A stretch of DNA of 64,000 nt, taken from positions 186,001 through 250,000 of the forward strand of contig JALIHJ010000033.1 of the NCBI GenBank assembly GCA_022984795.1, given 5' to 3'. Below are positions 26,167 through 62,009 of this stretch, one piece after another. The notes under the pieces were generated by a model that ran no database searches, had not been told where the DNA came from, and saw nothing but the letters and a program-made list of their open reading frames with translations. Source of the DNA: Fabrea salina. Taxonomy: Eukaryota > Ciliophora > Heterotrichea > Heterotrichida > Fabreidae. The position numbers were made by a program, and so were the translations under genes. The stretch's first letter is position 1. Each line of letters begins with the position of its first letter.

Positions 26167-27447
26167 ATGAAAAGAATCCCTAAGTTCAGTCAAGTCCGCT
26201 TTGACTTTAAGTCACTTAAAGAGAACTTGCCTCTGCACATCCAAAACGCCAGAAACAGACAAGTCAAAGCCAACCCCCAAAAAACAGTGCAGCTCTACGA
26301 AGAGTACAAAAAACACTTGTATGAGATCGAAATGATGCGCAAAAGAAAAAACCAACATGCAGAAACGTAACAACTAGTTAGAACACCTACTGAAGATAGT
26401 AGTGAACAGCACAGAAAGCACGGAAAGTACCTTAAACAAGCCATTGCCCAGCAACAAAAAGACCTAGACAAAGTTGAAGCCCAGATGATGAGTGAAGCCC
26501 TAATGATACCTAACCTCACCCACCCGGAAGTTCCTATAGGCCATGAACCTAAAGTCCTCGCCCAAAAAGGAACCATTCCCTCTGAGGAGCCCAAAGACCA
26601 CCTTGAAATAGGAAGACTCCACGACTTGTTTGACTTTGAAGGCGGAAGTAAAATCACAGGGTCCAAGTTCGTGTTTCTAAAGAACGAAGCAGTGTTTTTG
26701 GAACTAGGACTGGTTTACTGGGCTTTAGACAGGGTTAGGAAAAAGGGTTACCAGCTCAAAACCACTCCTGACTTAGCCAGAACAGACATTGCAGCAGGCT
26801 GTGGTTTCCAGCCCAGAGACCCCTCAGGCCAAATGTACTCTGTGGAGGAAGACTTGTGCTTGGTAGGAACTAGCGAAATCACCCTGGCAGGACTCCACAG
26901 CGAGGAAGTGCTGGACCCCTTCACGCTGCCTCTTAAGTACGGAGGGTTCAGTCACTGCTTCAGAAAAGAAGCAGGCAAAGGAGCTTCAGCCAAAGGCCTG
27001 TACCGACTGCACCAGTTTTCAAAAGTAGAGATGTTTGCATTTTGCAACCAGTCCACTTCAGAAGAACTCCACCATGAAATGCTAGGGATTCAAACTGAAC
27101 TTATGGAGGAGCTAGAACTGCCTTACAGAGTTTTGGACATGCCAACCACAGACTTAGGCAACAGTGCTTTTAGGAAGTTCGACATAGAAGTTTACTTGCC
27201 CTCTAAAAAAGATTATGGAGAAGTCACTAGCACTTCAAACTGCTTGAACTACCAGTCAGTAAGGCTTAACGCTTACTACCAAGAAGGCAGTGTTAAAAAG
27301 CACCTCCATACAGTCAACGGAACAGCTTTGGCAGTTCCCAGAATTATGATGGCGCTTCTTGAGTTGGGCCAAAAGTCTGACGGCAGTGTTGAGTTTCCCA
27401 AGGCACTGCATAGTTTTTTGCCATTCACACAATTAAGTCCTAAATAA
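26167..27447 (+). CDS. SARS1: cytosolic seryl-tRNA synthetase (one 15-nt intron)
   Basis: CDS join(26167..26366, 26382..27447), 421 residues. The intron at 26367-26381 reads GTAACAACTAGTTAG and sits in phase 2; unspliced, it brings an immediate stop. Exon 1 and early exon 2 encode the N-terminal tRNA-binding helical arm. The class II core follows: YSVEEDLCLVGTSEI (TXE substrate loop), motif 2 FSHCFRKEAGKGASAKGLYRLHQF and motif 3 GTALAVPRIMMALLE. NYQSVRLNAYY is also typical. It charges tRNA-Ser with serine. Length is slightly under other eukaryotic enzymes because the C-terminal extension is missing. Firm. Confidence 0.95.
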
Positions 27448-27451
27448 CAAA

Positions 27452-27952
27452 ATGACTCAAATTAACAAAAACCACTCCAGTTTAAGCGACCTACTTAAAA
27501 GGAAGCACTCTGGACTCCTGAGTTACGACAACTACATTGAGAAGAAGTACAGCAGAAAAGCCTCTGGGGAGTTCTCCATGCCTAAGGTTAACATTAACTT
27601 TGGTGAGGAAAGAAAACTATTCAGAGTGGTTTCTCACTCTAGAATAAGGGACTCCAGTTTGAACTCAAGTCCTTTTAGGTCATTATTTCGGAGCGGTTCT
27701 TATTTAGCTGAGCATAGCAAGTTTATAAACGAAGCAAAAGACTTCAACAACCTTTACTCAAATAATAGAACAAAACGTGCTATTATGACCAGGTCCAACA
27801 TTAAAAAGCCTAAAAAACCTAGAGTGCACCTCTGCAACCCCCCTTCACTCATAATTATAAACAAAAACTCCAACTTGGGCTACTCCAAAAACCCAGAAGT
27901 TCCCAAAAGAAAACCTGCATTTGGAAACTCTTCCCCAAAACTAAGGTTTTAA
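27452..27952 (+). CDS. small basic low-complexity protein, unknown
   Basis: 166 residues, TAA stop, 4 bp after the SerRS stop. Strongly basic with Ser, Asn, Lys and Arg-rich patches (KKPKKPRVH near residue 130) and no predicted membrane helix or known domain. Probably disordered. It could be a basal-body, cortical or nuclear protein. Its good ATG context (aaaATG), conserved spacing and uninterrupted frame are the evidence that it is a gene. Confidence 0.5.
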   Translation: MTQINKNHSSLSDLLKRKHSGLLSYDNYIEKKYSRKASGEFSMPKVNINFGEERKLFRVVSHSRIRDSSLNSSPFRSLFRSGSYLAEHSKFINEAKDFNNLYSNNRTKRAIMTRSNIKKPKKPRVHLCNPPSLIIINKNSNLGYSKNPEVPKRKPAFGNSSPKLRF

Positions 27953-27963
27953 TTTAAATATAA

Positions 27964-28524
27964 ATGCAGAGCAGAATGAAAGTGCTAGTGGTTGGGCCTT
28001 CAAGTGCAGGCAAAACCACTTTGGCCAACGTGGTAGCAGGGCACTCTGACACTCCTTCAGTTGTTTACCACCCAACATCTGGAGTCCGAATACTCGAAAT
28101 TGAAAAAGAACCTCCCCGCGCTAACAGACGTGCCGGAGAATCCTCTATCCAAATAGAGCTTTGGGACTGCTCAGGAGACCCCCGCTACGAAAAATGCTGG
28201 AGTGCCTACCGCAAAGGCACTCACGGAGTTATTTTTGTGTTTGACGCTAGCGAAGTCAACCCGGACATGGAAGAGTGGGTGCGCAACTTCCCCCAAAAAA
28301 TAGGAATCCAGCCTTCCCAGTGCATTGCACTCGCACACTACAAGTCAGGCAAACCCAAAGGAAGCTTAAGGGCTCCTAGAGGCCTTGAAAGGGTTTCTAT
28401 ACACGAAACGAGTTTGGACAACACTTCCAACATCCACCTTGCGTTTGATAAGCTCTACGGAATCATTTACGGAGCCATGGCTGAAAGCCAGGAAAAGGCT
28501 GAAAAAGAAATTATGAATGCTTAG
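27964..28524 (+). CDS. IFT22: IFT22 / RABL5 intraflagellar transport GTPase-like protein
   Basis: 186 residues, TAG stop. P-loop GPSSAGKT at residues 11-18, then GVRILEIE, the switch-II equivalent ELWDCSGDPRYEKCW, VFDASEVNPDMEEWV, and the closing KGSLRAPRGL and IHLAFDKLYGIIYGAMAESQ. The WDCxGDxxxExCWPAxxxxxHGV pattern is specific to RABL5. It lacks prenylation cysteines, as expected. It is a peripheral IFT-B subunit that regulates the pool of IFT particles. Upstream gene spacing 11 bp. Confidence 0.93.
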   Translation: MQSRMKVLVVGPSSAGKTTLANVVAGHSDTPSVVYHPTSGVRILEIEKEPPRANRRAGESSIQIELWDCSGDPRYEKCWSAYRKGTHGVIFVFDASEVNPDMEEWVRNFPQKIGIQPSQCIALAHYKSGKPKGSLRAPRGLERVSIHETSLDNTSNIHLAFDKLYGIIYGAMAESQEKAEKEIMNA

Positions 28525-28542
28525 TTTTTGAATAATAGTTAC

Positions 28543-30180
28543 TTAAGTTCTGGACTTCTCTAGAGTTTCAAATTCGCTAGGCTTGCAAATAGTGCCTTTG
28601 GTTATTACTTGGTTTGCAATTTTGTTCCAGGGAGCGAATTGGGGTCCTTTCAGTTGTTTCTTGAGTTCTATGTAGTTTTCAGGAAGAAGGCGGGGGTTTT
28701 CCCCAGTTTTCCAGTTCTCTATCCAGTTGTACTCTTTGAACCCGTTCATAAAGTTCCTTATATCCTTAATGGACTTGGAAAACTTGCTGGGGTCTGGGTT
28801 GTAAGTTCTTTTTTGAGTCTTGATTTCTGAAATTGCACTTTCGAACCTTGGAATAAATACTTGGTAAGCATCATCTCTAAGTCTGTCTATGAATGAGGCA
28901 ATTCTGGACTCCAACTGAATGATGAGTCTGTTTTTTGGCTCTACAAAGTACACACAGGACCGTAAAAACTCTAGTGATTCTAGAGTATCTGCTAAGTTTT
29001 CTTGGTCAAGGTAAGCACTGATTCGAGTAGTGATCATGAGTAGCATTACGAAGTAAGCTTCCTTTATGTCACTTCCAGTCATTAATTTCTTGGGACAACT
29101 TTTGTACTGGAGGTACAGCAGGTCGAAGGCGTTTTTGAGGTCCCACTTTTTAAGGAACTCTAAAAAGTTCACATAAGTCACACACTCAAAGTAAGTATCT
29201 CTGAAGTTAGCTCTAAGCTTAAAAAGTGCTTTGCGGTCGTTTTCTTTCAGTAACTTTTGAACTTTTAAGTTGCTTTCAACCAGTTTCAAAAAGGGGTCTT
29301 CATCTTCAAGGCCAGGTAAGGATTTGTGCTGGGGATGGTGGTTTTTGAGTGTAATATCAAGAGTGTACCACTTGCACAGGTCTTCTCTGCCTTTCAACTT
29401 CAAGAAAAGTCCAAAGTTTGCAATTAAAAAGTTAATGGGCCTTTTCTTTTTGGACTTATACAAAGTGTGCACTTGTTCTAGTGATTTGAGTCTTTCTCTG
29501 TACAGTGTTTCGACTTTTTGGAATGAACGAATGCAGTCTTTAGAAGGCATAGGAGTTTCGGCTTCGACTTTTTGCCAGGAGTTAGTTAAGGAGTCCAGAT
29601 CAATTGTTTTGGAGTTTTTGTCTTCTTGGATAGTGACTTTCTTAAACATTTCATTCACAAAGAAAGCACCAGAACTCGAAGTCAAAAAGTAATTGGGCGT
29701 TTTGAAGTGCTTACGGAGTGAATTCGTTATGCAATCCCTCAGTTTTTGCATTCCTTGGTTGAACTTAGGACACACCCAGTACTTAGCTCTTTCAAAAAAG
29801 TTTTCTTGTATCAAGCTAGCTAGTTCCTCGCTGTTCCTTAGTTTGTTGTAGTCTGAACTATAAAGGTGTTCTAGTAACTTGTCACAGTCATCAGCCCACT
29901 TGTTTGTCCTTTCAATGACTTTAGAGAGTTCTTTTTCGATGAGTTGTGTGAGTTCAAACCACTTCTCAATAGCTTGGGCTTTAGTCTGCAGAGCTTCGTC
30001 TTTGAGCTGCTTGACTGACTCTATAGCGTTCTGGCGGAACGTGTCGCTGATAGAGTGCATGCCTCCTATTGCTATGTGAGCTTGCATGTGCTCCTGACAA
30101 AGGTTTACTTCTTGGGGAAGGCACCCGCACTTCATGTATCCGAACTTTTCGCACTCTTTTATACTGCAGAACTTAGACAT
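28543..30180 (-). CDS. B-box-like zinc-binding protein with coiled coil, ciliate type
   Basis: 545 residues, TAA stop. The first ~45 residues (CSIKECEKFGYMKCGC, then NLCQEHMQAH) have Cys and His spaced like a B-box/zinc ribbon. Residues 60-110 are coiled coil, and the remainder is helical, perhaps TPR-like (NFRDTYFECVTYVNFLEFLKKW). Many ciliate genomes hold families of proteins with this architecture; no function is known to me. Convergent with IFT22 (18 bp between stops). Confidence 0.55.
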   Translation of the reverse strand: MSKFCSIKECEKFGYMKCGCLPQEVNLCQEHMQAHIAIGGMHSISDTFRQNAIESVKQLKDEALQTKAQAIEKWFELTQLIEKELSKVIERTNKWADDCDKLLEHLYSSDYNKLRNSEELASLIQENFFERAKYWVCPKFNQGMQKLRDCITNSLRKHFKTPNYFLTSSSGAFFVNEMFKKVTIQEDKNSKTIDLDSLTNSWQKVEAETPMPSKDCIRSFQKVETLYRERLKSLEQVHTLYKSKKKRPINFLIANFGLFLKLKGREDLCKWYTLDITLKNHHPQHKSLPGLEDEDPFLKLVESNLKVQKLLKENDRKALFKLRANFRDTYFECVTYVNFLEFLKKWDLKNAFDLLYLQYKSCPKKLMTGSDIKEAYFVMLLMITTRISAYLDQENLADTLESLEFLRSCVYFVEPKNRLIIQLESRIASFIDRLRDDAYQVFIPRFESAISEIKTQKRTYNPDPSKFSKSIKDIRNFMNGFKEYNWIENWKTGENPRLLPENYIELKKQLKGPQFAPWNKIANQVITKGTICKPSEFETLEKSRT

Positions 30181-30200
30181 TATTAACTATTGACTAATTC

Positions 30201-30815
30201 TCATAAATTAACTATGAACCAATATTCTACACAGAAGTGTTGGATCTCACAGGTCTTTTTCTGAGAGACTTGGAATGCTTCCAAGTAAACACAGGACAAG
30301 GAGTTCTTGAGTACAAGTGTGTATGTTTGAAGGCTCAAAGAGCCAATTAAGGGCTTCTGGAGTAGACAGTGTTGGGTTTTGCAGGGCTTGAAGGAATAAT
30401 TCTGTACAAGGTTTTTCTCAAGGAAGGATTCTACTTCTGAAAACAAAAGTTCCTCCCCAAAGACTTCGGTAAGATCCTTTCTGCTCTTGAAGCTGTAAGA
30501 AACCATTGTGAGTCTACTTGACTTTCTTAAAAAGGATTTTAAAAGCACTCTGCAGGTGTCAAACGTGTTCGAGGAGTAGCAGTTAAGCAGAGAAGCCAAC
30601 TCAGGGCTGAAGTAGTAGTAGTTCTTTTCAAGTTTAGCTTGCTTGTAGGGCTTCTCTGTAGTAGATTCTGCTCCACAAGGTACTTCTTCTAAAAGGTTTT
30701 CGTAGTCAACGTTTATTGCTACCTTCTTGATTGCAACCTTTCTGGTGGGTAGTCCTGGTTTAGAGTGTCCAAATAACTTTTGAACTATCAATCGCCAATC
30801 AATGTTCGGCTCCAT
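30201..30815 (-). CDS. SWIB/MDM2-like domain ORF, possibly degenerate
   Basis: 204 residues. Residues about 70-140 resemble a SWIB domain: YYYFSPELASLLN, a helix at LLKSFLRKSSRLTM, a basic FKSRKDLTEVFGEE stretch and FSEVESFLEKNL. That order (Spe-L-a, then a 'working' helix, then D-x-L-x-x-hF, then the final helix) follows SMARCD/BAF60 and TRIP4-like SWIB proteins of chromatin remodelers. The C-terminal 65 residues match nothing and the ORF ends in TGA, the only TGA stop among accepted genes in the window. It neighbours a broken PCNA-like sequence. A decaying SMARCD-type copy or a fast-evolving gene are both possible. Confidence 0.4.
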   Translation of the reverse strand: MEPNIDWRLIVQKLFGHSKPGLPTRKVAIKKVAINVDYENLLEEVPCGAESTTEKPYKQAKLEKNYYYFSPELASLLNCYSSNTFDTCRVLLKSFLRKSSRLTMVSYSFKSRKDLTEVFGEELLFSEVESFLEKNLVQNYSFKPCKTQHCLLQKPLIGSLSLQTYTLVLKNSLSCVYLEAFQVSQKKTCEIQHFCVEYWFIVNL

Positions 30816-30846
30816 TGTTAAGGGGGGATTTTTATTTAGTAAAATT

Positions 30847-31265
30847 ATGGTAAAGGTTTTAGCGGCCTAATTGCCAGTTCAAATTTTCGAGAAATTTGTG
30901 TTGGCAGTTAGGCTGCTAATAGAAAGGGTAAAGGCAGGTTTACACATTGCTTTCCAAGGTTACTACTTAACTCAGAGCATGTGCATAGACTTCTGTCTAA
31001 CTGGCCAGCATGATCGGAGCATGTGGCCAGTCCCTTTTGAATTCCACCTAAGTCTAGAAGAAGCTCTTCTGGGATTGTGCACAGCTAGCACAGCTCAATT
31101 CCAGTTCTTGTAGATTTCTACTTAGACCAGAACCTAAGAGGCTTCATTGGTGCAAACGAAAAGGAATACTGCTTACGGAAGACTTTGCTTAAATGCGAGT
31201 CCTTTCTACCCTTTGTACAGCTCAAGAAGGGAATTCACCGGACCTGGGGGTTTCGGGAGAATTGA
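30847..31265 (+). pseudogene. probable PCNA-like sliding-clamp pseudogene
   Basis: ATG at 30847 opens a frame with a TAA after seven codons; the same frame then continues for about 80 codons. That piece, IFEKFVLAVRLLIE, a YLTQSMCIDFCL block and FEFHLSLEEALLGL, follows the PCNA N-terminal domain in order (ILKKVLEALKDLI, LQSMDSSHV, and the D-x-N-x-x-G-I-x-L-x-x-L-x-K-I-L region). A shifted frame next gives YLDQNLRGFIGANEKEYCLRK, resembling PCNA's LMDLDVEQLGIPEQEYSC, but about 30 residues of the intervening clamp and the whole second domain are missing. A possible 16-nt intron (GTAGATTTCTACTTAG, 31110-31125) does not restore the good frame. A broken duplicate is most likely; PCNA identity is moderate. 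Confidence 0.4.
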
Positions 31266-31308
31266 AGTAACAATACACTCTAAAGTGTTAATTAAATAAT
31301 AAAACTTT

Positions 31309-32269
31309 CTAAGAATGGTTAACTAAGTTAAAGTAGTCTTGGATAAACAACTCAAGGTCCTGGGGGTTGTTTAAGAAGTGCTCTGTTGCAATAGGCCCCT
31401 TGTATTTAGTTTCTTGAGGAACGAATGACTGAATTAGGGTCTGGACACCTCTAGACTGGGTTCTAGACCTTCTAACTAGTTCTTGGAAGCACTCGCCAGG
31501 CTGCATTCTAAGTTTTTCTTCACTGAGTTCCAAAATAAAGTTAAGGGCTATTTTAAGACTGGTAAAAGTGTACCTGAACTCAACAGGGTCTTTGTAGTCC
31601 CTTCTAGGCAAGTACCTGAAGTACTTTATGTAGTAGTAGTTGCTGAACAACTTCTCCGTTTTGGACTTCAACACTACATAAGTGAACAAAGGAAGTGACT
31701 CGTCTGCTCCATGAATCTTGGCTGTGTTCGAAAGTATTGCTGAGTAAAGCTTACTGTTGATAATACGAAAACAGTTTGAAATGCAAATGAGTTTGTCTCT
31801 AGGCGAAGTGTAAGTGTTAATTTTTTGAAGTTCTAACTGACTATGAGTTACCAGACACTGCTACCTGCAGAAGGTGCTCAGAAATGCCTTCGGTTTGGAT
31901 TTCTAAGTGGTCAGGCCTTATGAACTGGAACTTTTGGTAAGCCAAAGCAAGTTGCTCGTCTTTTTGCTTGTCAAGAGGCTCAGTTCCGAACAAAAGACTG
32001 AACTTTTCTTTGGTGATTAAGTACTCAAAAGCTTCAGAGGACTCTTCTAAGGAGTCTTGCCAGCAAGGCAAGTTGGGCAGTCTTTCTTCAACTTGTGAAA
32101 TGAAGTTTTGGAGTCTCGAAGACTTAGCAGCTCTGGAAATTCCGGGTCTCAACTGGTTTTCTAAGAAGCTGTGTAAGTGTTACTTGAGAAGCAAAGACTT
32201 TAACTTAGCTGAAGATGGGTCTTGGAGTCGCTTTTTGAACTTTTTGATGTTCAAAGTCTGGAATTCCAT
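31309..32269 (-). CDS. VPS9-domain protein, Rabex-5-like Rab5 GEF (two introns)
   Basis: CDS complement(join(31309..31840, 31857..32168, 32184..32269)), 309 residues, TAG stop. Intron 1 is GTAACACTTACACAG (15 nt) near the start; intron 2 is best read as GTCTGGTAACTCATAG (16 nt), which joins the two halves of one VPS9 domain without a gap. Diagnostic: ELQKINTYTSPRDKLICISNC, then GADESLPLFTYVVLKS and LFSNYYYIKYF, the core of the domain that exchanges GDP on Rab5-class GTPases, preceded by the helical bundle around KFQFIRPDHLEI. No ubiquitin-binding zinc finger is visible. Start codon is 7 bp from the UGGT start. Confidence 0.85.
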
Positions 32270-32276
32270 TTAATAA
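32270..32276. promoter_or_regulatory. 7-bp divergent intergenic gap (VPS9 / UGGT)
   Basis: The seven AT-only bases ttaataa separate the two divergent ATGs. This is the tightest divergent spacing in the window. Both transcripts must start at or inside each other's coding sequence, or be initiated at the ATG itself. Confidence 0.5.
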
Positions 32277-35200
32277 ATGATTTGGTTTGTGTTCGTGAGT
32301 GCTCAGGTTGTACTCGACATGCAAACTAACTGGGAGGCTCCTTCTCAGTGTTCTTTGTTGCAAGAAGTAAGTGAGTACTACTCCAACTTAGGCTTGTTTT
32401 GGGAATTCCTAAGTAGGCTTTCAGAAAGTTCTAGTATATGGGAAGTGGGCAGGTCGCAAAGCGAAAAAAAATTGATCGAAGCAAGCCTGTACAACCGAGA
32501 GTTCTCGCCGAAACTAGAGTTTTTGGCAGCTTTAGAAAGAACTGACAGAGCTGGTCTCACTCAAGACTGCAATGAGTTTTACGTGGTGAACGGCAAAAGC
32601 ACTTGTGTGCTTGATAAACAACTTTTAGGCACACCAATCCAGAACTACTTAGAGTCTGACCATGTTTTCAATCCCTCTGAAAACACTTTAATAGCCTACT
32701 TAAACATATCTTCCCCAAACTTCCAAGAAACTAATTTGGCCCTGAAAGAGTTTGCTCTAGAAAACAACTGTTCTTATGTTTTAAGGCACTTGAACTGCAG
32801 AGCCCAAGGAAAAGACACAGTAAGTGGTTTCGGAGGTTCTTTGTTGATCAAAGACATGGAGTACAAGCCCCTTGAGGACGTTAACGTTCAAATTACTTCA
32901 GATTCAGGCAACTGGAACCTTGAAAACTTGCCTCTGAAAGCAGTTGAAGCAACTAAGTCACTTTTACCAGACTGGAAAGCAATGACTGATATGATGCTCA
33001 ACTACCCTGACTACTTAGAAACCCTTTCAACCACAGAAGTTCCTTCTCAAGTAGCAACTGACTCTATGAACAACGCTCTTTCTCACTTTGAAACTATAGG
33101 CTCCAACCGTTTAGTAGTTAACGAACACTTAGTGCCTATTGAGTTTTTCAGTGTTTTAGACTTAGTTAGAAACCAAGTTGGCACCTTGGATAGAGTCACT
33201 CAACTAGGGATTCCAAGCTACAAAGCACTTAGCATCCTCCAAAGCATTAATTCTGCTATGCACTTGCACGACACCCAACCTGGAGTTCTGAGCACTCAAA
33301 AAAACACTGGGCGAGTCTACTTAAACGATTTAGAGAAAGGCAAAAGGTATTCAAAATGGCCCAACAGAATAGAGTACTTGGTGTTTTCCTCAAGCATGCA
33401 ACTTGAAAAAATAGCTTCTAACACTTTTAACCTTATTCTGGTAGCAGACATTACTTCTCAGACAGGAATAGAAGCAATCAAAAACTTAGTAGAAGTCTAT
33501 AAAGAAGACTGGCCCGTGCACTTAGGAGTTATACTTCAAGGAGAGCAACAATTAGTTAACCTAGTTCTGCAAGCAATCAAGAACCTTTACAAACTAGACG
33601 AGACTTACCCAACTCAGTTCCTCAGCCAACTTTCACCTGAGATTTCCTTTGAAGAAGCTTTGAGTCTCTACAACACCTTTTGCAAAGAATGCACTTACGA
33701 TGAAGAGTACCTGCAGCCCTACGAAAGGTGCAAACACTTCTGCGAAGTTACAGGACTGTGTGGACCCTCACAGTGGATTCTTAATGGAAAAGTTCTGAGT
33801 ATAGACGGCGAGTTCATGACTCAACTTTACACACAACTGGTTATGGAAAAAAGGTACGTGCAAGTTTTAGCCATGAAAGGAGTTTTAAGTGCTCCTTTCA
33901 GCAGTTTCTTTGAAAAAGCTCAGCACGAAAAAGTCGTAACAAGGATTAACGCCAAAATTACTTCTCAGGAAAGCAACCAAGTAACCCTTGTAGAGCCCTC
34001 TGAAGGAGTTATTTTTGAGTTAAGTGAGGCTCCAAAGTTGGCTACAATTACTGTGTACAAAAAACACCCAGGCGACCACTTAGTTAAAATGGCCTTTGAA
34101 ACTCTCCAAAGGTTTTCGCACTTGCCTATAAGATTGAGATTCTTGATAGAAGAATTTGACGAACCCGAAGTGTGTTTGCTTTACACAGCACTTGAAACTG
34201 GAACTATTGAGGAAGAATGCAAGTACGGAGCACACACCCTTTTCGAGTACTACAAAACAATCCAGTCTAAGACTCCAGTAGAAAACGGAGTTGCTGTGAA
34301 TTCTAGGTTTGTTCACTCAGAGTCCTTGTTGTCATTCAGGGACGTTCATTTGTTGTATGAAACTGAAGTTAAGAGACTCAACATGAGCAGTGTGCTTTCA
34401 GAACTAGAAACTCTAGAAACTCCAAATACTTCGGACATTCTGGAGAAAATAAGCTTTATTGGACTGTCAAGTATCCAACACTTAAGTGACTTTAAAAGCT
34501 ATGACTCAAAACCTATTCCTGAAAGTATGTGGAAAGAGTCACTTTCTAGAGAACTTGGGGAGCCTGAAACTTTTGTAGCTAAAGTTCTGTTGAACCCAAT
34601 GAGTGAAGAGGGCCAGAAACTCGCCTCTTTGGTGCAGTGGCTTTTGAGTGTAGGTGCACAAGTAAAAGTAGTGTTCAACCCAGACATTAAGTTAACTGAA
34701 AAAGTACTGCCTATACACAGGTACTACCAGTTATGGATTAGACAAAGCTTTGAAGAGCCCATGCAAATAAACGGAAAAGCAAACCACGTGTTTACTTTGA
34801 GTCTGGACTCTCCTGAGAGTTGGTTTACTTTGCAAGGAGAAAACACCTACGACCTAGACAACTTGATTCTAGAAGGAAATACTCCAGTTAACTACAAACT
34901 CCAAAGTCTCATGATAAAAGGGCAGTGCGCACAGGAGTTCAAAGGGTTCGAAATAGAGCCCCCCAACGGACTGCAACTTCAGTTAAAGCAAAACAGTTCT
35001 TTTGTGTCAGACACTATAGTTATGAAGAACTTTGGGTACTTCCAGTTTAAGGCAAACCCAGGCCTATACAGTATATCCCTAGCTTCTGGAAGGAGCTCTG
35101 AACTGTTCCACATAGAAAGTTCTTCTTTGGTGGCTGTGGAGGACATCAAAGGCCCCACTGTGTTTTTAAAGGCTGCCAAAAACAAAGGCTTTGAAGAAGA

Positions 35201-36104: not shown

Positions 36105-36119
36105 ATATAATTAAAAGCC

Positions 36120-36824: not shown

Positions 36825-36836
36825 TAACTTATGTAA

Positions 36837-37559: not shown

Positions 37560-37603
37560 ACTTAACTGTCAAAATAAGAATGCATTTCAGTTGACTTGTA
37601 TAA

Positions 37604-39511: not shown

Positions 39512-39524
39512 GTAACACTTATAA

Positions 39525-40793: not shown

Positions 40794-40799
40794 TATTAG

Positions 40800-41844
40800 T
40801 TACCCTAATCTGAGGAGTTCCTGGATTTCGGACCTTGCTGAGTCTTCATAACGCAACCAGAAGAACTGGGTCATAGTAGGCATAGCTAGCACCCAAATAC
40901 TTGCCCCTACTGAGTAAACTGCTAAGCCTCTGTAAAGAGCTGAGATTCCTTCGGTCCTGACTATGTTTAACAAAGCCATTGAGACACTTCTGTGCTGGAT
41001 ACCTGGCATGCCTATGCAGTTGGCTTGGGCTGCAACTCTTCTTTGAGCTGTGAGGACTGGGTAAAGCAGCAAGTAACCACCTATTCCTAAACAGATTTCC
41101 TTGATTATAACACTAAAACTTGAAGCATCTGTAGTTCCCAGTGCTTCGTCAGTTATAAAGTCCAAGTAAGAAATGTTAGCGTTCCAAAGAGTCAAAAAGG
41201 CCTGCTTGGGAAGAATGGCTCCCCAGCCCAAGTACATGTTCTTAGTTCCGCTTTTTTTCCACATTTGGAGTATGTCTTGGTAGACTCTGAAATTCTTGAC
41301 TCTGCTTTGTTGGATGTACTTAGTTTGAGCAACAAACAAAGGGTGCAGAACCAATTCACTCAAAGAAGCTATTCCTGTCTCTGTGCTAGAAGTTACCTGT
41401 GGCCATGATTTGGTACTTGCCCAAGGAGCCAGGGTCTATGTAGTTCGAAGTAAAAGAAGTAGCTAAGGCCCTTCCAACGTTACTTAAGTAAAAGTGCGAA
41501 GTTCCGCACAGAAGCCCTCTGTAGAAACCTAAAGGTCCTTGTAAGGAACTGTGCATGAGTGCCCCTGTGTAAGAGTGGAACTGGGAAGGTCTGAAGGGCC
41601 TATTGGCTGGGTTTGGAGTGTGAATGAAGGAGTAAAGTTTTTGGTTAAAGGTTTTTCCTGTGTAGTTGGGAGTTTGTGGAAAGGGGGAAAGCTGCAGTTG
41701 AACAGAAGTTTGGAACATAGGGTACACTAAAAGGTTAATTCCAAAGTTAACTCCACCTATGACGTGTGCCCCGTATTTCTGCATTCTCTCTTATTAGCTC
41801 TCACTTTCGTTTTCTTTCAACTTTTCGAAAAGGTGCTCTTCCAT
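40800..41844 (-). CDS. divergent mitochondrial carrier family protein (two introns)
   Basis: CDS complement(join(40800..41380, 41397..41789, 41805..41844)), 337 residues. Intron 1 is GTGAGAGCTAATAAG (15 nt) behind a 13-codon first exon; intron 2 is GTAACTTCTAGCACAG (16 nt). Three carrier repeats can be traced: GGVNFGINLLVYPMFQTSVQLQL with GFYRGLLCGTSHFYLSN; LHPLFVAQTKYIQQ with MYLGWGAILPKQ; and GGYLLLYPVLTAQRRVAAQ with GISALYRGLAVYSVG. The PxD/ExxK motifs are degraded to P-x-F/V forms, so the substrate cannot be predicted; MTCH-like insertase/carrier remnants are similar. Inner- or outer-membrane location uncertain. Confidence 0.75.
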
Positions 41845-41874
41845 TTATCTATCTCACTGGCAACTTAAGTTAGC

Positions 41875-42474: not shown

Positions 42475-42488
42475 TTCACAGAATTATC

Positions 42489-43352: not shown

Positions 43353-43403
43353 TTATACTATTATAGCGAAGCACCTGCAGAAGTGACCAACTAACTATTA
43401 ACT

Positions 43404-43496: not shown

Positions 43497-43528
43497 ATTA
43501 TACGCCATTTAATAAACTATTTTGACAG

Positions 43529-43771
43529 ATGGTAAGACCTACTTAGCCTAAGGAAATAAAAGACATAAGGATGTTTTTGCAGAAGTGCAGACCTGTAGGA
43601 AACCAAAAGGCACAAGCCAAGGCAGTCACAATCAAGAGAGCTGGCAAAGTCACCAAATTTAAGCTTAGATGCCCCAGATACCTATACACTATGGTTGTGG
43701 ACGACCCCAAAAAGGCACAAAAGATCAAGGAGTCTCTGCCACCTAGCCTTAACAAAAAGGAAATTAGTTAA
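43529..43771 (+). CDS. RPL38: ribosomal protein eL38 (intron directly after ATG)
   Basis: CDS join(43529..43531, 43547..43771), 75 residues. The ATG is its own exon: the 15-nt intron GTAAGACCTACTTAG follows immediately (43532-43546) and ends in an in-frame TAG if not removed. Spliced, the protein starts MPKEIKDIRMFLQKCR and keeps eL38 hallmarks: VTIKRAGKVTKFKLRCPRYLYTMVV, DDPKKAQKIKESLPPSL. It is a component of the 60S subunit. The start at MFLQKC, used if the intron is missed, would delete the conserved MPxxIxxI N-terminus. Confidence 0.93.
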
Positions 43772-43797
43772 ACATCTAAGTTCTCTTCGCTAAGTAA

Positions 43798-44517
43798 ATG
43801 TCAAAGGTGTACCAGATAGACACTTGCATCCTGGACTCTATGTACCAAAACTATATTTCGGAGCAACTCTTAAGAGCACTTCCCAACAAGCACTGGGTGG
43901 ACTTCTGCGTAAGGGCAGGGGTCCTAACTGCTCACTTAGCTGGTACCATATGGAAGGGCAAAAACACCCCAGGAGCAGAAGTCTTTAACATGAAATGGGT
44001 GGCCTCTACCAAACCCCTGACCTGTCTCCACTACTTACTGGAGTTGTTTGACCTTTTAGTTAAAAAGGCCGAAAACAAACTAGGAGTGCTGTCGAAGGCT
44101 TGGAAAGTTGCTGTGTTTGTGAACTGGGTGTGGTTCTTATTGCAAGGAAAGTACCCCTTCCTAACCCAGAGACTCGGCCAACTCCGCATGGTAGACTTTA
44201 CTTAGGAAACCAAAAACCCCAAAGCTAAATTAGGAGTGAACTACACCTACACAACAAGAGTGTTTGTGCTGGAACAAGTGACTGGAACTCTAAAAGCAGT
44301 GATTCCAGTTTTGAAACTAGAGTCTATTCTCAAACTGTTTTTGGGAGAAATAGAAATGGCCACGTAAAACTTATTTAGAGGAGAGGGGTCTTTCTGCGTT
44401 ATTTGTGGAGAAGAGGAAGTAGTGACTCCTTTTAAGTTCGGAAACTGCAACCACCAAGCTTGCTACGTGTGTTGGGAGTCTTCACAACAGCAAGTTTGTC
44501 CTAAGTGTAAGCATTAA
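43798..44517 (+). CDS. PEX2: peroxin PEX2, RING peroxisomal E3 (two introns)
   Basis: CDS join(43798..44190, 44206..44363, 44379..44517), 229 residues. Introns GTAGACTTTACTTAG and GTAAAACTTATTTAG, both 15 nt. The N-terminal Pex2/Pex12 region holds ILDSMYQNYISEQLLRAL, then FLLQGKYPFLTQRLGQLRM joined to NYTYTTRVFVLEQVTGTLKAVIPVL, as in PEX2. Exon 3 is a RING: CVICGEEE, then CNHQACYVCW and CPKCKH at the extreme C-terminus. PEX2 with PEX10 and PEX12 ubiquitinates PEX5 in the peroxisomal membrane. PEX10 is less likely because of the Pex2-type core and short length. Confidence 0.85.
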
Positions 44518-44523
44518 TAAAAT

Positions 44524-44982: not shown

Positions 44983-45058
44983 ATGGCTTTTAGTTAATAG
45001 AATGTAATTAGTGAACATTGACATTTACGGCCATAAAATAGGGATGCAAAGGCTTGGA

Positions 45059-45307: not shown

Positions 45308-45312
45308 CACAT

Positions 45313-45789: not shown

Positions 45790-45806
45790 TTAATTTACAA
45801 TTAAAT

Positions 45807-47315
45807 ATGAGTGATTCTGGAATTATGAGCAATGCTGTGCTGTGTTTGTTGCTTTTGTTGGTGCTGAGTCTTTTGCTGGGACACATACTTAAGCAAAAGG
45901 AGTCTCGCTGGCTGCAAGTTTCGGGAGTTGCAACTATCTTAGGGGCTTTGTTTGGCTTGATTCTAACTTTGGTTGGAGAACAAACAAATTTCAAGCCCAT
46001 AACTGCCCTGAATGCAGAGTTTTTGTTTTTGTTTTTGTTGCCTCCTATCATCTTTGAAAGTGGCTACAACATGGACAAGGTAAACTTTACTTAGCACACC
46101 TTTTTTGAGCAGTTCGGCGGAGTTTTGTTATTTGCCTTTTTGGGAACTTTTGTGTCTGCCTTGTCTGTCGGGGGTCTTTTGTACGCTTTTGCAAGTGGCA
46201 GTGGCAACTCATCACTAAGCTTCATAGAGTGTCTGGCTTTTGGAAGCTTGATTTCAGCAACTGACCCTGTGAGTGTGCTCGGCATCATGAAAGACATCAG
46301 TGCCGACAGTAAACTCTACAACCTTATTTTCGGGGAAAGTATTTTTAACGACGCAGTAGCTATAGTGCTTTACCAAACTGTTTTGAGAGTCCACGAAAAC
46401 GGAGAAAGTGCTGGAGAAATCCTGGGCTCTATAGGGTTGTTCTTTTTGATATTTTTGGGGTCTTGCTTCATTGGGAACTTTACTGGGATGCTTATTTCTT
46501 ACATACTTAAAACTGTCCAACTCAAGCAGAAACTCAACTTTGAGGTGAGTACTGTGATTTTTGGACCTTGGATATCTTACTTGCTTTCTGAAGCCCTGCA
46601 CCTTTCAGGCATAGTGAGTATTTTGTTTTGTGGGATTGCAATGGCCCGCTACACCTACCCTAACTTGTCTGAGATTTCAAGACTCTCTGTGGGCAAAGCT
46701 TACAGTGCAGTGGCTGAAGCTTTTGAAGTTTTGGTGTTTATCTTCTTAGGCATGGGGTTGTTTAGCTTTAACTTGCCCTACTCCAAAATGGGAGCTGGTT
46801 TGTTTTTAATGGCTTGTTTCTTTATTTTGCTTGTGAGGGCCTTTATGGTTCCTTTGTTTTCAGCTCTTTTGAATCCCTGGCGCAAAAGGAAACTAACTTG
46901 CAAACACCAGTTCTTCATGTGGTTTGCAGGCTTCAGAGGAGCTATTGCGTTTGCTTTAGCGATCCAAGCTGACAATGACTTTGAAAACGGAGACTTAATT
47001 CTAGCAATTACTTTGTTGTTTGCAATCATATCAGTGGTTGGAGGGGGGAGCTTAGTAACTCCGTTACTTTACAAACTCAATCTCATTGAAAGGCACTCCG
47101 AACCCTTTGCCAGGAACCAACCTCCTTCTCCTACAAGGCAAACTCCTTGTTCTAGGATCAAAAAGTTCGTTTTGTTTTTAGACGAAACCTACATCTACCC
47201 CTTGCTGGTGAGAAAGGACTTCTCTGTTGAAACCAAAAGCCCTGAAGAGCCTGTTTTCGAAAACGAAATTGAACTTGGTGTTCCTGGAGAAGAAAACAGT
47301 AAAGAACAAGAATAA
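45807..47315 (+). CDS. Na+/H+ exchanger (SLC9/NHE family), one intron
   Basis: CDS join(45807..46079, 46095..47315), 497 residues. Intron GTAAACTTTACTTAG (15 nt, phase 0, in-frame TAG). About 12 hydrophobic segments. Diagnostic CPA1 motifs: FLLPPIIFESGYNM, ATDPVSVLGIM, FGESIFNDAVAIVLYQT (ion-binding Asp), and the WFAGFRGAIAFALAI segment near residue 380 (the Arg/Gly-rich TM11). Electroneutral Na+ or K+/H+ exchange in endomembranes (NHE6/7/9-like) fits the short cytosolic tail of about 90 residues. Subfamily uncertain. Confidence 0.9.
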
Positions 47316-47339
47316 TTAGTGAATAATTATAATAATTAA

Positions 47340-48695: not shown

Positions 48696-48704
48696 CCTAA
48701 CAAA

Positions 48705-51302: not shown

Positions 51303-51310
51303 ATTATCAA

Positions 51311-51829: not shown

Positions 51830-51844
51830 TTATTAACTAACATC

Positions 51845-53689: not shown

Positions 53690-53720
53690 TGTTTATCAAT
53701 TGAGTTGCTGGTACTCAAAA

Positions 53721-54356: not shown

Positions 54357-54366
54357 ATAACAAAAA

Positions 54367-55791: not shown

Positions 55792-55838
55792 CACATATGC
55801 TTAAATTTATGTTAATTTCAGTAGGTTTGGTAAGTAAA

Positions 55839-57209
55839 ATGGAAAACAAGGACGAAGTAGTGGGGGAGGTGTTTGAAAAAATAGGCTTTGGGTGGTACAA
55901 CAAGTGGGTTTTCTTGGTTTGCGGACTGGTGAGTTTTACTTAGGCTTGGGTAAGCGACATGACTTGGACTATAAACACATCTATAATCATGCAAGGTGTT
56001 TCGAAACTCTGGGTTCTTTCTGAATTTCAAGTAAGCCTCATAAGTCTCAACTTTGTGGTCGGGATGTTTTTGGGGTCTTACTTCTGGGGGATCTTGGCAG
56101 ACATCTATGGAAGAATGTTTTCTTTCAAAAAAACAGTAATTTTCGCACTGTTAGGCGGGATCGGGCTTACGGTCAGCCCAAGTGTGGAGTGGGTGTACAT
56201 AAGCAACCTGGTCACAGGTTTCGGAGTAGGTGGAGAAATTGCTTTGGGTGGAACTGTTTTGGCTGAGTTCACTCCTCCTTCACGCAACTGGCTCATAGGC
56301 TTGCTTTGCATGTTCTGGAGTCTAGGAGGGGCTATTTCTGCACTGTTGGCTTTAATGTTCCAGTTCACAGGAGAAGCTGTGATGTGGAGGTGGGTGTGTG
56401 GGATTTGTGCAGGGACTGAGTTCCTTTTTCTGTTTCTGAGGTGGAACATGCCTGAAACTCCCTTTTGGCTCTACAACCAAGAAAGGTACACTGAAGCCCA
56501 CTCAGTCATGAAAAAAGTTCAAAAGAAAAACCAAACTGACCACTTCGACTTAAACTACTTTTCTTTTGACTCCTTTATTTCAGGCACTGGTTTCCAAGAA
56601 AACAAGTCAAGCATCATTTTAAAGATTTTTGGGAAAGTCCACATAAGAACTACCCTCATTATGTCTCTGATCTACTTCTTGGGCAACTTTGCATTTGCAG
56701 CACTAGTTTACTTCATGCCTATGCTTATAAAGCAGTCTAGTTCTGAAGAGTCCACAACTTTCGTGTGGGTCATAATACTGATCCAGCAAGCAGCAGGAAT
56801 CCCAGGCAACTTCCTAGCAGCTTGGTTAATGGAGTCGAGTTTGGGCAGGAAGTGGTTGTTAGTTGTAGCTTCGCTAGTGACATCTGTGCTGACTTTCCTG
56901 TTTTTGATGGCAAACGGAGTAGGAACCACTCTTTTGTTCAGTTCTTTGATGATGATGTGTTCTTACTTGACTTGGAGTGTAGCTTACACAGTTACTCCAG
57001 AGTCCTACCCTACAGAAATCAGGAACTCTGGTGTAGGTTGGGCCAACACTTGTGCAAAGTTTGGAGGCATTGTAGCTCCTCCTTTGATGGGAGTGCTTAT
57101 GGAACTAGAAAGTGGCTTTGTGGTGAGTTTGGTGGGGATCTCAGGAGTCTTTGTTGCAATAGGTCTTCTTTGCTCACTGATTAAAGAAAAACGAGTAATG
57201 AAGGAATAA
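55839..57209 (+). CDS. MFS transporter, SVOP/sugar-porter-like (tandem copy 2, one intron)
   Basis: CDS join(55839..55928, 55944..57209), 451 residues. The intron GTGAGTTTTACTTAG lies after codon 30, within the sequence for the first transmembrane helix (VFLVCGL joined to AWVSDMTW), which aligns with copy 1's FLVCGTAWAADMLW. Same landmark motifs as copy 1: DIYGRMFSFKK, GFGVGGEIALGGTV, RWNMPETPFWL and ESYPTEIRNSGVGWANTCAKFGG. Diverged along the whole length, so an older duplication; the intron is absent from copy 1. Substrate unknown. Confidence 0.88.
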
Positions 57210-57241
57210 TCAAATTTAATTTTGGGTCCATGTTAGTTATC

Positions 57242-58786
57242 TTACCTAGTTAATCCTGAAGTCTGCTTCAAAAACTTAGGAACCAAATAGAAGTATTTGT
57301 AAATCTTTTCACAAATTTCCATGAAAACCATAACTTGGCCGTATACTTGGCAGAAATCCAAAATGTATGTTTCTTCGTACTTGTGGATATTGACTTGGAA
57401 CTTCACGTGTCTTTCCAGAAGACTAGGGTTTGTTTTGACTTGCGACTTGACTTTTTTAGCCTGGTCCACAAACCCCAGGGTTCTAGCCCGCACACTGAAG
57501 TTGGACAAAAGTCTCCACTCCAGTCCAGACTGCCTCAAAGCATCAAATAAGTTGATCATTAAATTGCAAGAATCTACACAGCACCTGAACCCGTAAACCC
57601 AGTTATTTGGAACCAACACTGTTTTTTCAAAGGAGTTTTTAGAGTCCCTTTCAACCTCTGGAGGCATCAAAGACCTAAACACAGGGTTCACTTTCATGTG
57701 GGTGCTGTCTAGCAAGTTCCTTTTCATTTTCATTTTGGTGTCCCTCAGTAGTTCATAACTCACGTTAACCAAGTTCACCTTTTGGCTTTTTAAACTATCT
57801 ATAATAGAGCTTTTTTCGTACATTCCTTTGAACTCAGGAAGTTCCATTAGTTCCTGGACAATTTCATCATCTAAGTCCAGCCCAGACTTTTCAGCCCTGA
57901 TTTCAGAAATAGAGTTAACATCTTTGTAGTGGTCCACTATAGTGGGAGTGTACCTTAAGTGCAGAGGAAGGTGCATTTTATACCAGGGGTGTTCTTGGAT
58001 TTGCTTTGCCGTGATCCTTGCCACTGGGTCAGCTGCTAACATTCTGGAAATCAAGTCCTTTGCCAGTGGAGAGATATGGTGGGGCATTTCATAACTTGCA
58101 GACTTAATTTTTGAAAACAAAGCTGGGATGTTGCCTTCGTCAAAGGGAAGGTACCCTGCCAACAAAGCATACAGCACCACGCCGATGCTCCAAATGTCCA
58201 CTTCAGGCCCGCAGTAAGCACTTCCGGATATCAGCTCTGGCGCTGCATAATTAGGGGACCCACAAGCAGTCTTTAGAAACTCACCGTCTCTAAGCATGCT
58301 GGAAAGACCAAAGTCACTAATTTTGATGTTGGTGTCTTCGTCAAGCAAAATGTTTTCAGGCTTGATGTCTCGGTGCACAACTTTGTGCAAGTGGCAGTAG
58401 TGCACAGCTGAAAGGATTTCCTGAAAGAACTTGCGCGCTTCTGGTTCAGGCATTCTGCCTTGGCGTTCAATTAAGTTGTAGAGTTCGCCTCCAGGGACAT
58501 ACTCCATGACCAGCACTATATCGTTGGGTGTTTCAAACACTTCGTAGCTAAGTGGGCCTTACAGTCTTATAATGTGTGGATGATGAAACAACCGCAGAAT
58601 CCTCACTTCCCGACCGACTTTCCTGCCCAAGTGCTGTTCTCTTATAAAAGAGCGTTTAATAACTTTAATAGCTACGAGCTCTTTCGTGATTTTGTGTTCA
58701 GCAACTACTTATGGGTTACGTTTAACTTTTCCGAAACTCCCTCCTCCCAAGGACCGAATTATTCTGTAGTTTTCTAGCGAAGACAT
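57242..58786 (-). CDS. AMPK alpha / SNF1-type protein kinase (two introns)
   Basis: CDS complement(join(57242..58547, 58563..58704, 58720..58786)), 504 residues, TAA stop. Introns are GTAACCCATAAGTAG (near codon 22) and GTAAGGCCCACTTAG (near codon 70). Spliced, the N-terminus is MSSLENYRIIRSLGGGSFGKVKLAEH with catalytic Lys in VAIKVIK. Later: HRDIKPENILL, DFG, and the T-loop FLKTACGSPNYAAPE with the activating Thr near 162. A UBA-like auto-inhibitory helix (DDEIVQELMELPEFKG) and a C-terminal KA1-type domain (NNWVYGFRCC to the end) complete the AMPK/SNF1 layout. Energy-sensing kinase; beta and gamma partners are not in this window. Confidence 0.93.
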
Positions 58787-58859
58787 TATGATTATTACTC
58801 ATTTTACTAAGCTTTGCAAAATAGATTAGAGTTTCCATCTTGGTCAGATATAAATAGTG

Positions 58860-61800
58860 ATGTCTTCACAAGCAATAGTTAGCTACGGGTACCAAGGAAA
58901 CTTTCGTTACGACACGAACGACAAACAGGAGTTCGTTGGTCTTTCAAACCAAGGAGCCACTTGTTACATGAACTCTTTGCTACAGACTCTGTTCTTGACT
59001 CCAGAGTTCCGCAGAGAAATCTACCGCTGGAGGTACGACAGTGAAAAGCATGGAGAGCAAGAAGATTGCATACCCCTCCAACTGCAGTTGCTGTTCGGAA
59101 AATTGCAGCTTTCAGACTCGCTCTACATAGAAACAACTGGACTCACTAAAAGCTTCCAGTGGGACATCCGGGATAGTTTCCAGCAACACGACGTGCAGGA
59201 GTTCTGCAGGGTCCTCTTCGACGCTATTGAACAAAGCGTAGAGGGCACTGAACAAGCCAACATGATCAAGCAACTCTACGAAGGAACTTACGTGGATTAT
59301 GTCAAGTGCATGAATTGCTCGCACGAAAGTTCCAGAGAAGACAAGTTCTTGGATCTTAGCTTGACTGTCAAAAACATGTTTGACAAGATCTACAACGACT
59401 CAGTAGAAAAAGCCCTAGAAAGCTACATAAGGCCTGAAGAACTTACAGGCGACAACCAGTACTTCTGTGAAAAGTGCAACAGCAAACAAGACGCTTTGAA
59501 GGGTCTTAAGTTCAAGGAACTTCCCTACATCATGGCTCTCCAACTCAAAAGGTTCGACTTGGACTTGCAGACCTTTTCCCGAATTAAACTCAACGACGAA
59601 GTTAGGTTCCCCCAAATCCTCAACATGAACTCCTACCTAAAAGGAACACTGCAAACAGCAATGGACTCGGACAAGCCAGGCTCTAGTTCTGACGAAGAAG
59701 AGTCCCCAATAGCTGACTTGTCTCCAACAGACATAGACAACTGCGACTTCCAACTAGCCAAGTTTAGTTCATACGACACCATAATGGACGACGACGAAAA
59801 GAAGCCCCTGAAACTAGACCCAATAGCAAAGAAAAAACAAATTGAAAGAAGAGCTGAAATCCAGAAACAAGAAAGAGCAAAACTCATAGAAGAGTACAGA
59901 GAGGACGGAGAAAATGTTTATGAGTTGTTTTCTGTGATGATTCACTCAGGCTCGGCCTTGGGAGGGCACTACTACGCCTACATTAAGTCCTTTGAAAACG
60001 AAAGGTGGTACAACTTCAACGACAGCATAGTTAAAGAAATTGACGAAAAAGACATTGAAAAGGTGTTTGGAGGGACGAGTAAGAGTCTGGGGTACTGGGG
60101 TTCTTCTTACTCGTCAAATGCATACTTGCTGATGTACAGGAAAGTAGACGAGTCCAAAAACATTTCGAGAATAGAGAGTTCAGAAGTGCCTGAGTACATT
60201 TTGGAAGTCCTTGAAAAAGAAAAAGAAAAGGAAGAAGAAGAAGCCCGCGAAAGAGCTGAAAAACTCAAAAAGATGAAACTGCGGGTCTTCTACAAAGGCA
60301 AAGAAAAACAAATCGAAATGAACAAAGACGCCCTCCTCAAAGAACTCAAAAAGAAAGCCTTGGAAGAATTCGAAATTCAAGAGATTTCAAACGAAAACGT
60401 AAGGGTGAGGGGCTACTCCCAGTACTACGACATCTTCCAAGAAGTCTTCAACGAAGAAAAAAGTCTTGAAAACCTAGGCTTGTACAGCCACAGACTCATT
60501 GCTCTCGAAACCAAGAAGCCTTCCGAAGAGTTCGAAGAGTACGACCCCCTCAAAGTCACTATCAAAGTCAACGTCTGGGACGAAGAAACCTGCAGTGACC
60601 CCGAACTTCCTTTTGAACAAAAAACTTCCAACCCCTCCAAGTTCCAAGTCGAGAAAAGAGAAACTGTCAGGAAACTCATGCAGTTCCTGGAAGAAAAGTT
60701 CAAAGTTCCCTTTGCAAAACAAAAACTACTCAAAAAGGGATTTGCTAGTTTTTCACAAACTCCAGAAGTGATTTCAGCAAGACACAACTTAGACCAGTCC
60801 ATCAGTATGGTCAGGATCTACGAAGGCTGCGTTTTGTACCTAGAAAGTGTTGAAGACCACCAAGCTAAGTCCAAGTGGCAGAAGTTGCTTGAAGAAGAGG
60901 CCAACAAAATAACCATCAAATTCAACCACCCCGACCAAAAGCCCAACGTCCACGGACAACTTGACTTCAAAGAAAGTGTAGTCATCCAAAACAAAAAGAC
61001 TCTCCAAGACCTCAAAAAAGAAATAGCTTCCAAAATCAACTTAGAAGTCGACGAGTTCATCATGAAGAGGGGCAGCAGGTACGGAGCTGAAACCAAAGAC
61101 ATGAGTCTGAAGTTAAGTCAAGCCAACATAGTCAACAACAACCTTTTCTTCATTGAAAGAGGCACTCCTTCCAGACCTGACGAGTTAAGACTTATTTTCC
61201 ACTTAGCACTTCCTGCCAAACCCACTGACTGCGACGGAGCTTCCTTTTCCTTTACAGAACTCTTCCAACTGCCTGTCCACCTAGAGTCCAGAATCAAGCA
61301 AGTCAAAGAAAAAGTGGCTGAAAGACTCAAAGAAATGTACCCTTCCATGGAAGTGGACCCTGAGAAAATGCGCTTAAGAGAAAAGTACAACGAAAAAATG
61401 AACAAGGTGCTGAAGGACCAAGAAATGATAAGGCAGTACCACATGTTTGACAAGAAAAACATCGGAGTGCAGTTGCTTGAGGAACCCGACAAAAAGCTAG
61501 AGTACTCAGAGATAATAGTCATAGTTAGGAAGTGGTCTCCCTCCACTTGGGAACTCACTTCTCCTAAAGAAATAATCATCAACAAGCACTGGAGACTCCA
61601 CGAGTTCGGAGAAAACCTAAGTAAGATCTTCGAAATACCAGTAAGTTCTACTTAGCACGAAAACTTAGGAGTCCACAGAGTAAGTTACTCTTACAACTTC
61701 ATGAGGGGCGAACTGAAGTCTGAAAAGTTCATAAAAACCCAGGGCAACTACCACTACCTGTCAAGCCAGCCCTGGTACTTGAGTGTGGATGGAATGCTTT

Positions 61801-62009
61801 TTATGTAAGTTTTACTCAGAATCAAAGATAACACCGAAGAACTCCGCGAAATGACTTCTGAAGAGAAAAAGAAGTACTCTGCTAAATCTTTTTACGGGTT
61901 TTCAAGTGTCACTAACTTCAGTTACGAGTCCAGAGAAAAAAGCATGAAAATCACAGTCAAAAAGAAAAAGAAGGAAGACCCCGACTCCCAAGAAAAAGAA
62001 GATAATTAA
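58860..62009 (+). CDS. USP47: USP47-like ubiquitin-specific protease (two introns near 3' end)
   Basis: CDS join(58860..61640, 61656..61804, 61820..62009), 1,039 residues. Introns are GTAAGTTCTACTTAG and GTAAGTTTTACTCAG, both in the last 400 bp. Cys box GLSNQGATCYMNSLLQTLF near residue 30-50 (active Cys ~35); QQHDVQEFCRVLFDAIEQ; zinc ribbon CMNCSHESS and CEKCNSKQ; His box GGHYYAYIKS near 370. FKELPYIMALQLKRFDLDLQTFSRIKLND is USP47-specific. After the catalytic domain come ubiquitin-like repeats. The MATH domain of USP7 is absent. It removes ubiquitin, for example from DNA polymerase beta in animals; the ciliate target is unknown. Confidence 0.9.

Follow-up and report, generated by a model that had tools for sequence, protein, structure and literature searches.

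Fifteen-nucleotide introns in heterotrichs and in the window

The closest described counterparts of the introns considered here, ultrashort candidates in the ciliate Fabrea salina, come from other heterotrichs. In Stentor, 8173 of the 8806 annotated introns are 15 nucleotides (nt) long, with an adenine at position 10 (A10) in 8005, and the other 633 are 16 nt long, with an adenine at position 11 (A11) in 442 (PMC9505925). The compact macronuclear genome of the heterotrich Blepharisma stoltei likewise holds mainly introns of 15 and 16 base pairs (bp) (PMC9942806), and heterotrich introns as a group are described as ∼95% of 15 bp and the rest of 16 bp (PMC11441545). The karyorelict Loxodes magnus also has very short introns, but with a mode of 17 bp and a negligible share below 16 bp (PMC11441545). 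For F. salina, a canonical genetic code is reported (PMC10553269), and a 2026 paper credits earlier work on both Stentor and this species with reporting a conserved branch-point adenine close to the 3′ end (PMC13344042). The stretch analysed here in full, called the window, comprises 64,000 nt of the F. salina genome (assembly GCA_022984795.1, contig JALIHJ010000033.1, positions 186,001 to 250,000). The original prediction, made from its sequence, held that nine genes contain fourteen spliceosomal introns, twelve of 15 nt and two of 16 nt, that A10 of the 15-nt introns is the likely branch point, and that introns this short are typical of heterotrichs. The last claim is consistent with the accounts of Stentor, Blepharisma and the heterotrichs at large (PMC9505925, PMC9942806, PMC11441545), and the sequence evidence below supports the spliceosomal 15-nt class of heterotrich type with A10 as its likely branch point. 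This agreement with the heterotrich literature marks a known kind of finding and not a surprise; the finding is real, and probably already known for the Fabrea genome itself.

Long open frames are present in the window under the standard code, the longest of 1410 codons, whereas UGA encodes tryptophan in Blepharisma (PMC9942806). The nine genes were rebuilt to ask which stretches each needs removed. Candidate 15-mers were scored with a weight matrix trained partly on introns of the window itself, ten in number, which score 13.8–21.1. Set to a threshold of 7.5, the matrix reports 29 sites for the window versus 10 for the same sequence reversed. Eleven 15-nt introns in eight genes are supported. 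Each contains an internal in-frame stop between open frames on either side, and most also have homology near or across the junction. All eleven run from GT to AG and all eleven carry A10, just as had been proposed. The predicted introns are as follows.

26367..26381, plus strand: 15-nt intron GTAACAACTAGTTAG in the seryl-tRNA synthetase (SerRS) gene, phase 2, in-frame TAA
32169..32183, minus strand: 15-nt intron GTAACACTTACACAG at the 5′ end of a gene for a VPS9-domain Rab guanine nucleotide exchange factor
43532..43546, plus strand: 15-nt intron GTAAGACCTACTTAG immediately 3′ of the ATG in the gene for ribosomal protein eL38, phase 0, in-frame TAG
44191..44205, plus strand: 15-nt intron GTAGACTTTACTTAG in the gene for a PEX2/PEX12-like RING protein, join across a stop
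44364..44378, plus strand: 15-nt intron GTAAAACTTATTTAG in the same PEX2/PEX12-like gene, just 5′ of a RING-like finger, join across a stop
46080..46094, plus strand: 15-nt intron GTAAACTTTACTTAG in a Na+/H+ exchanger gene, join across a stop
55929..55943, plus strand: 15-nt intron GTGAGTTTTACTTAG in an MFS transporter gene, join across a stop
58548..58562, minus strand: 15-nt intron GTAAGGCCCACTTAG in an SNF1/AMPK-like kinase gene
58705..58719, minus strand: 15-nt intron GTAACCCATAAGTAG in the same kinase gene
61641..61655, plus strand: 15-nt intron GTAAGTTCTACTTAG in the gene for a USP47-like deubiquitinase, weight matrix 21.1, with a join across a stop
61805..61819, plus strand: 15-nt intron GTAAGTTTTACTCAG in the same USP47-like gene, join across a stop, weight matrix 19.7

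Junction homology is strong for the kinase, the exchanger and eL38. Removal of the stretch at 58548 gives back ..HIIRLYEVFETP.. and of that at 58705 ..GSFGKVKLAEH.., so that both IIRLYEVFETP and GKVKLAEH are regained without gaps against an SNF1-like kinase. The alignment to the PDB chain of sodium/hydrogen exchanger 9 crosses the 46080 junction, again gapless, and eL38 spliced at 43532 reads MPKEIKDI..., aligns to eL38 from residue 1 and scores 91.2 bits for Ribosomal_L38e. Homology is fair for SerRS and for the first PEX-like intron. In SerRS, open frames are joined across the stop, a Seryl_tRNA_N match (15–114; 29.5 bits, cut-off 28.2) spans the 26367 junction and a PDB alignment (63–418) continues through it; the 44191 junction lies inside a Pex2_Pex12 match (89–169; 26.2 bits, cut-off 25.1). 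The second PEX-like junction (44364) is followed by a RING match at 188–228 of 22.4 bits, under its cut-off of 27, and in the transporter the MFS_1 match starts at residue 49, i.e. at the 55929 junction. Both USP47-like junctions have stops, open frames and the motif as their support, the one at 61641 falling outside the PDB-matched part of the protein; the word GTAAGTTTTACTCAG (61805) occurs 11 times in identical form across the genome, its reversed form never. The intron at 32169 scores 13.5 and joins across a stop; inclusion of the 5′ exon that it delimits extends the match to a VPS9a chain from 50–256 to 11–256, with a gain in score from 100.3 to 105.6 bits.

Thirteen positions had been listed in the original prediction, and the stretches described are present at all of them. 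Eleven of its twelve 15-nt introns stand if 32169..32183 is taken as the unlisted fourteenth, as is most likely; the twelfth, at 41790, is doubtful (see below). Its phrase that the introns restore the frame fits those of other lengths and not the 15-nt ones, which keep the frame. A 15-nt insert is therefore detectable only through an internal stop. In the weight-matrix scan, positions 1–26366 hold no well-supported 15-nt intron, against eleven in the remainder of the window.

Length class, position 10 and reading frame across the genome

Motif searches covered the whole genome (18,328,466 bp in 103 contigs), with the pattern GTAAGN{1,8}TACTTAG and its reversal as control. Reading frames played no part in this search, which returned 310 matches for the pattern and 6 for the control. 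Length and frame tests used the 100 matches listed, of which 82 are 15 nt long; the others measure 13 (two), 14 (five), 16 (three), 17 (one), 18 (five) and 19 nt (two). By extrapolation (82% of 310), about 250 matches have A10. The same 15-nt motif with C, G or T at position 10 occurs 11 times in the genome (reversed control, 2), close to the ∼8 per length extrapolated from matches of the wrong length. Thus, A10 is near-invariant in the motif set.

A second approach was blind to position 10. Coding-scored joins were counted over 234 kilobases (kb), namely the window and 17 further loci, for GT–AG gaps and for seven control dinucleotide pairs. Joins of 15 nt number 17 for GT–AG, versus 5, 7, 3, 5, 1, 2 and 4 for the controls, and A10 is found in 15 of these 17 unselected hits, versus 3 of 27 control hits. 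Joins of 16 nt show no excess in the same 234 kb (12 versus 8–14 in control pairs).

Other lengths were considered and mostly set aside. A separate 16-nt class with A10, prompted by the two 16-mers claimed in the window, was rejected (37 genome-wide, control 25). With A11, the 16-nt pattern gives 84 matches and its control 13; many share the end CTACAAAG and may be repeated sequence, and neither of the window 16-mers has an A at position 11. Motif forms of 16 nt are few here (three of the 100 matches listed) in comparison with Stentor. The word GTAAGAGACTACAAAG and close variants recur (e.g. C31:3500, C34:248649, C58:154516, C60:8000 and C100:753, given as contig and position) and are perhaps repeated sequence rather than introns. 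Two loci near contig ends, L043 (C9:313160) and L044 (C12:1591), share the identical 18-nt word GTAAGAAGTGTTACTTAG with near-identical immediate flanks, perhaps a subtelomeric repeat. In the join test, five of the 18 listed matches of other lengths pass: 0/2 of 13 nt, 1/5 of 14 nt, 2/3 of 16 nt, 1/1 of 17 nt, 0/5 of 18 nt and 1/2 of 19 nt. Introns shorter than 15 nt were rejected, since one of seven exact-motif matches of 13–14 nt joins (L032) and wider scoring makes its upstream side negative. Exact-motif introns of 17–19 nt were rejected as well: two of eight (L040 and L046) pass the weak join test, and L046 stays in frame unspliced.

Of the 82 listed 15-nt sites, 42 chosen by motif without regard to reading frame were tested (38 fetched for the purpose and four from other loci), and 36 pass the frame join (32/38 and 4/4). 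Twenty of the joined introns are in phase 0, nine in phase 1 and seven in phase 2. The consensus GTAAGTTTTACTTAG yields TAG in phase 0, TAA in phase 2 and no stop in phase 1; correspondingly, all 27 introns in phases 0 and 2 hold an in-frame stop and none of the nine in phase 1 does. Joins across an in-frame stop, the only ones counted as evidence, occur at 27 of the 42 motif sites; for comparison, random excisions give 533 in 20,000 and stop-matched 15-mers 352 in 8,569. The stop-free nine are unlikely to be chance coding matches, judging from sequence counts, because the phase-1 share extrapolates to ∼50–60 genome-wide versus ∼8 per wrong length. In other ciliates, introns whose length is a multiple of three (3n) are mostly under-represented and stop-enriched, introns of 22–44 bp in Tetrahymena being an exception (PMC5014332), and in Loxodes 3n introns are relatively depleted (PMC11441545). 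Among the papers listed by a literature search, none is evidently on stop-free heterotrich introns, although the two main genome papers lay outside that search and novelty is not claimed.

Splicing machinery and the probable branch adenine

The genome encodes a recognizable splicing machinery. U2, U6 and U1 each have one match over the Rfam cut-off, with canonical recognition boxes in U2 (GUAGUA, which reads GUGUAGUAUC) and U6 (ACAGAGA, which reads AUACAGAGA). SF1-HH, Slu7 (L028, C47:15246-15821) and a partial Prp18 (L029, C31:183310-183495; 62 of 143 positions) are also over cut-off. Loss of the second-step factors Slu7 and Prp18, on the ground that just 5 nt separate the branch from the 3′ end, was considered and rejected, both being detected; a BLAST survey of Stentor, in contrast, reports both as not found (PMC9505925). 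Otherwise, the window shares with Stentor coeruleus the dominant 15-nt length, the GT–AG ends, A10, the 5-nt tail, and the GUAGUA and ACAGAGA boxes (PMC9505925). The 3′ half is TACTTAG-like here, whereas the commonest Stentor intron is GUAAUUUUUAUAUAG (PMC9505925).

Very probably, as far as sequence can tell, these are U2-type spliceosomal 15-nt introns of the heterotrich type, branched at A10, in a compact macronuclear genome. Removal of the stretches by splicing is our inference, as is the role of A10 as the nucleophile. The spliceosome would excise 15 nt, with the GTAAG at the 5′ end read by U1 and then by U6; the 2′-OH of A10 would attack G1, forming a 10-nt loop, and the AG at positions 14–15, five bases past the branch, would serve as the 3′ splice site. 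A10 is taken as the branch because it is the sole near-invariant base between the splice sites.

Several observations weigh against this assignment. A crude scan joining open reading frames, confined to the window, gives no spike at 15 nt (four hits); two of the 17 hits in the 234-kb coding scan are without A10, and 6 of the 42 motif-chosen sites fail the frame join. A join test that ignores stops is weak, as 1959 of 4000 random 15-nt excisions pass it, and for this reason the frame join alone was rejected as evidence; cuts of 18 or 21 nt at the 38 fetched motif sites give 31 joins each. The U2AF-like proteins reach at most 224.5 bits, the cut-off for the family being 310.3, and matches turn up in 2 of 14 control genomes as well. 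Finally, in the register with A10 bulged, 19 introns average 2.79 U2 pairs each, versus 3.20 when shuffled [standard deviation (SD) 0.27]; pairing is seen at position 7 in 18 of 19, at position 8 in 9, at position 11 in 13 and at position 9 in none. Short degenerate branch sites need not show clear U2 complementarity.

Two alternatives deny splicing altogether. Errors of sequencing or assembly, or coding repeats, might imitate introns, and the repairs of frame at 31841 and 41381, which are not 15 nt long, could conceal indel errors; the rate of random frame joins is also high. Yet the genome-wide motif excess is 50-fold, at a single length and with a fixed A, and the junctions regain conserved residues; an artefact is very unlikely as an account of the 15-nt class. 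Even less credible is the idea that ribosomes read through the stretches or skip them. Inserts of 15 nt do preserve the frame, and those in phase 1 hold no stop, but internal TAA or TAG codons are bridged at 27 of the 42 motif-chosen sites, and a splice-site consensus and genes for small nuclear RNAs are present.

A third alternative accepts splicing and gives A10 another role: the adenine would be invariant through base pairing with U2 (intron UACU with U2 AGUA), the branch lying elsewhere or being chosen by distance. In this unbulged register, the 19 introns average 3.58 pairs versus 3.22 shuffled (SD 0.22), whereas the canonical register drops below its own shuffles, and the Stentor branch, too, was deduced from sequence (PMC9505925). 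The gain amounts to ∼1.6 SD only, in a sample picked by eye; of the ten 15-nt hits that the scan gave beyond the window, this sample excluded two, both lacking A10. Moreover, the neighbours of A10 vary (T9 in 15 of 19, C11 in 12, T12 in 15), and far more so than position 10 in the unselected scan. Variable neighbours beside a fixed A10 are as expected of a nucleophile and not of a paired base, which makes the pairing alternative improbable, and branching at A10 stays preferred. For the branch–U2 interaction, the Stentor authors invoke U–U and U–G pairs (PMC9505925). The original prediction had maintained that the fixed A leaves almost no room for normal U2/branch geometry; position 9, unpaired in 19 of 19, and a pairing no better than shuffled agree with it, while the canonical U2 and U6 boxes do not.

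Candidates of other lengths and the meaning of the 15-nt class

Two genes of the window hold candidates that depart from the 15-nt class or fit it less clearly.

31833..31851, minus strand: probable intron of 19 nt, GTAACTCATAGTCAGTTAG, in the VPS9 gene, GTAA donor, overlapping the claimed 16-mer 31841-31856
31740..31754, minus strand: stop-free 15-nt candidate GTAAGCTTTACTCAG in the VPS9 gene, phase 1, weight matrix 19.9, near-perfect motif
41381..41396, minus strand: 16-nt candidate GTAACTTCTAGCACAG, alternatively 22 nt, in a mitochondrial-carrier-like gene
41790..41804, minus strand: doubtful 15-nt candidate GTGAGAGCTAATAAG at the 5′ end of the carrier gene

In the VPS9 gene, the 16-nt intron proposed at 31841 needs a GTC donor and adds a residue. 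Excision of 19 nt fits better, giving VSELQKIN, gapless at the junction against plant VPS9a, so that 31833-31851 is the probable intron in its place; the difference in VPS9 domain score is small (76.4 bits for 19 nt, 74.8 for 16 nt and 74.3 for 22 nt). Nested in the 19-mer is a match to the 15-nt consensus, GTAACTCATAGTCAG (31837-31851; weight matrix 15.1), use of which would throw the gene out of frame. This minus-strand stretch also shows possible tandem 3′ splice sites, CAG and TTAG, 4 nt apart and with differing reading frames. The candidate at 31740, absent from the original list, is ambiguous, as its homology is contradictory: splicing raises the VPS9 domain from 76.2 to 79.6 and Rabex-5, which favours splicing, from 48.2 to 51.5, whereas VPS9a, which favours retention, falls from 105.6 to 98.7.

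In the carrier gene, a frame shift at 41381 separates two coding frames. The 16-nt intron as proposed there scores lower for Mito_carr than a 22-nt one (35.9 versus 37.3 bits); with a PDB search too weak to choose, the length may be 16 or 22 nt. The 15-mer at 41790 is doubtful as an intron: it scores just 6.9 in the weight matrix and lies upstream of a possible start codon, without homology support. This stretch may be untranslated, the protein starting further downstream.

It is tempting to go one step further, in a speculation that we regard as unlikely although not negligible. The branch A would be picked by its distance from the two ends, as with a ruler (10 nt to the 5′ splice site, 5 nt to the 3′ end), and not by a U2 bulge helix; the stop-free introns would escape nonsense-mediated decay; and rarer longer introns, such as the 19-nt VPS9 intron with its nested 15-mer, would provide frame-changing alternative splice sites. 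The ruler is suggested by a U2 box that is canonical while the introns do not match U2. If the rest is true, introns five codons long, about a quarter of them without an in-frame stop, would place splicing beyond the control of nonsense-mediated decay.

To our knowledge, no spliceosomal introns shorter than the 15-nt ones of heterotrichs are known; the heterotrich introns test the minimum sequence that a spliceosome requires. In this compact genome, A10 is conspicuous among variable neighbours, and complementarity to U2 does not seem to account for it. About a quarter of the introns would escape both stop-based gene prediction and the decay of unspliced messages.

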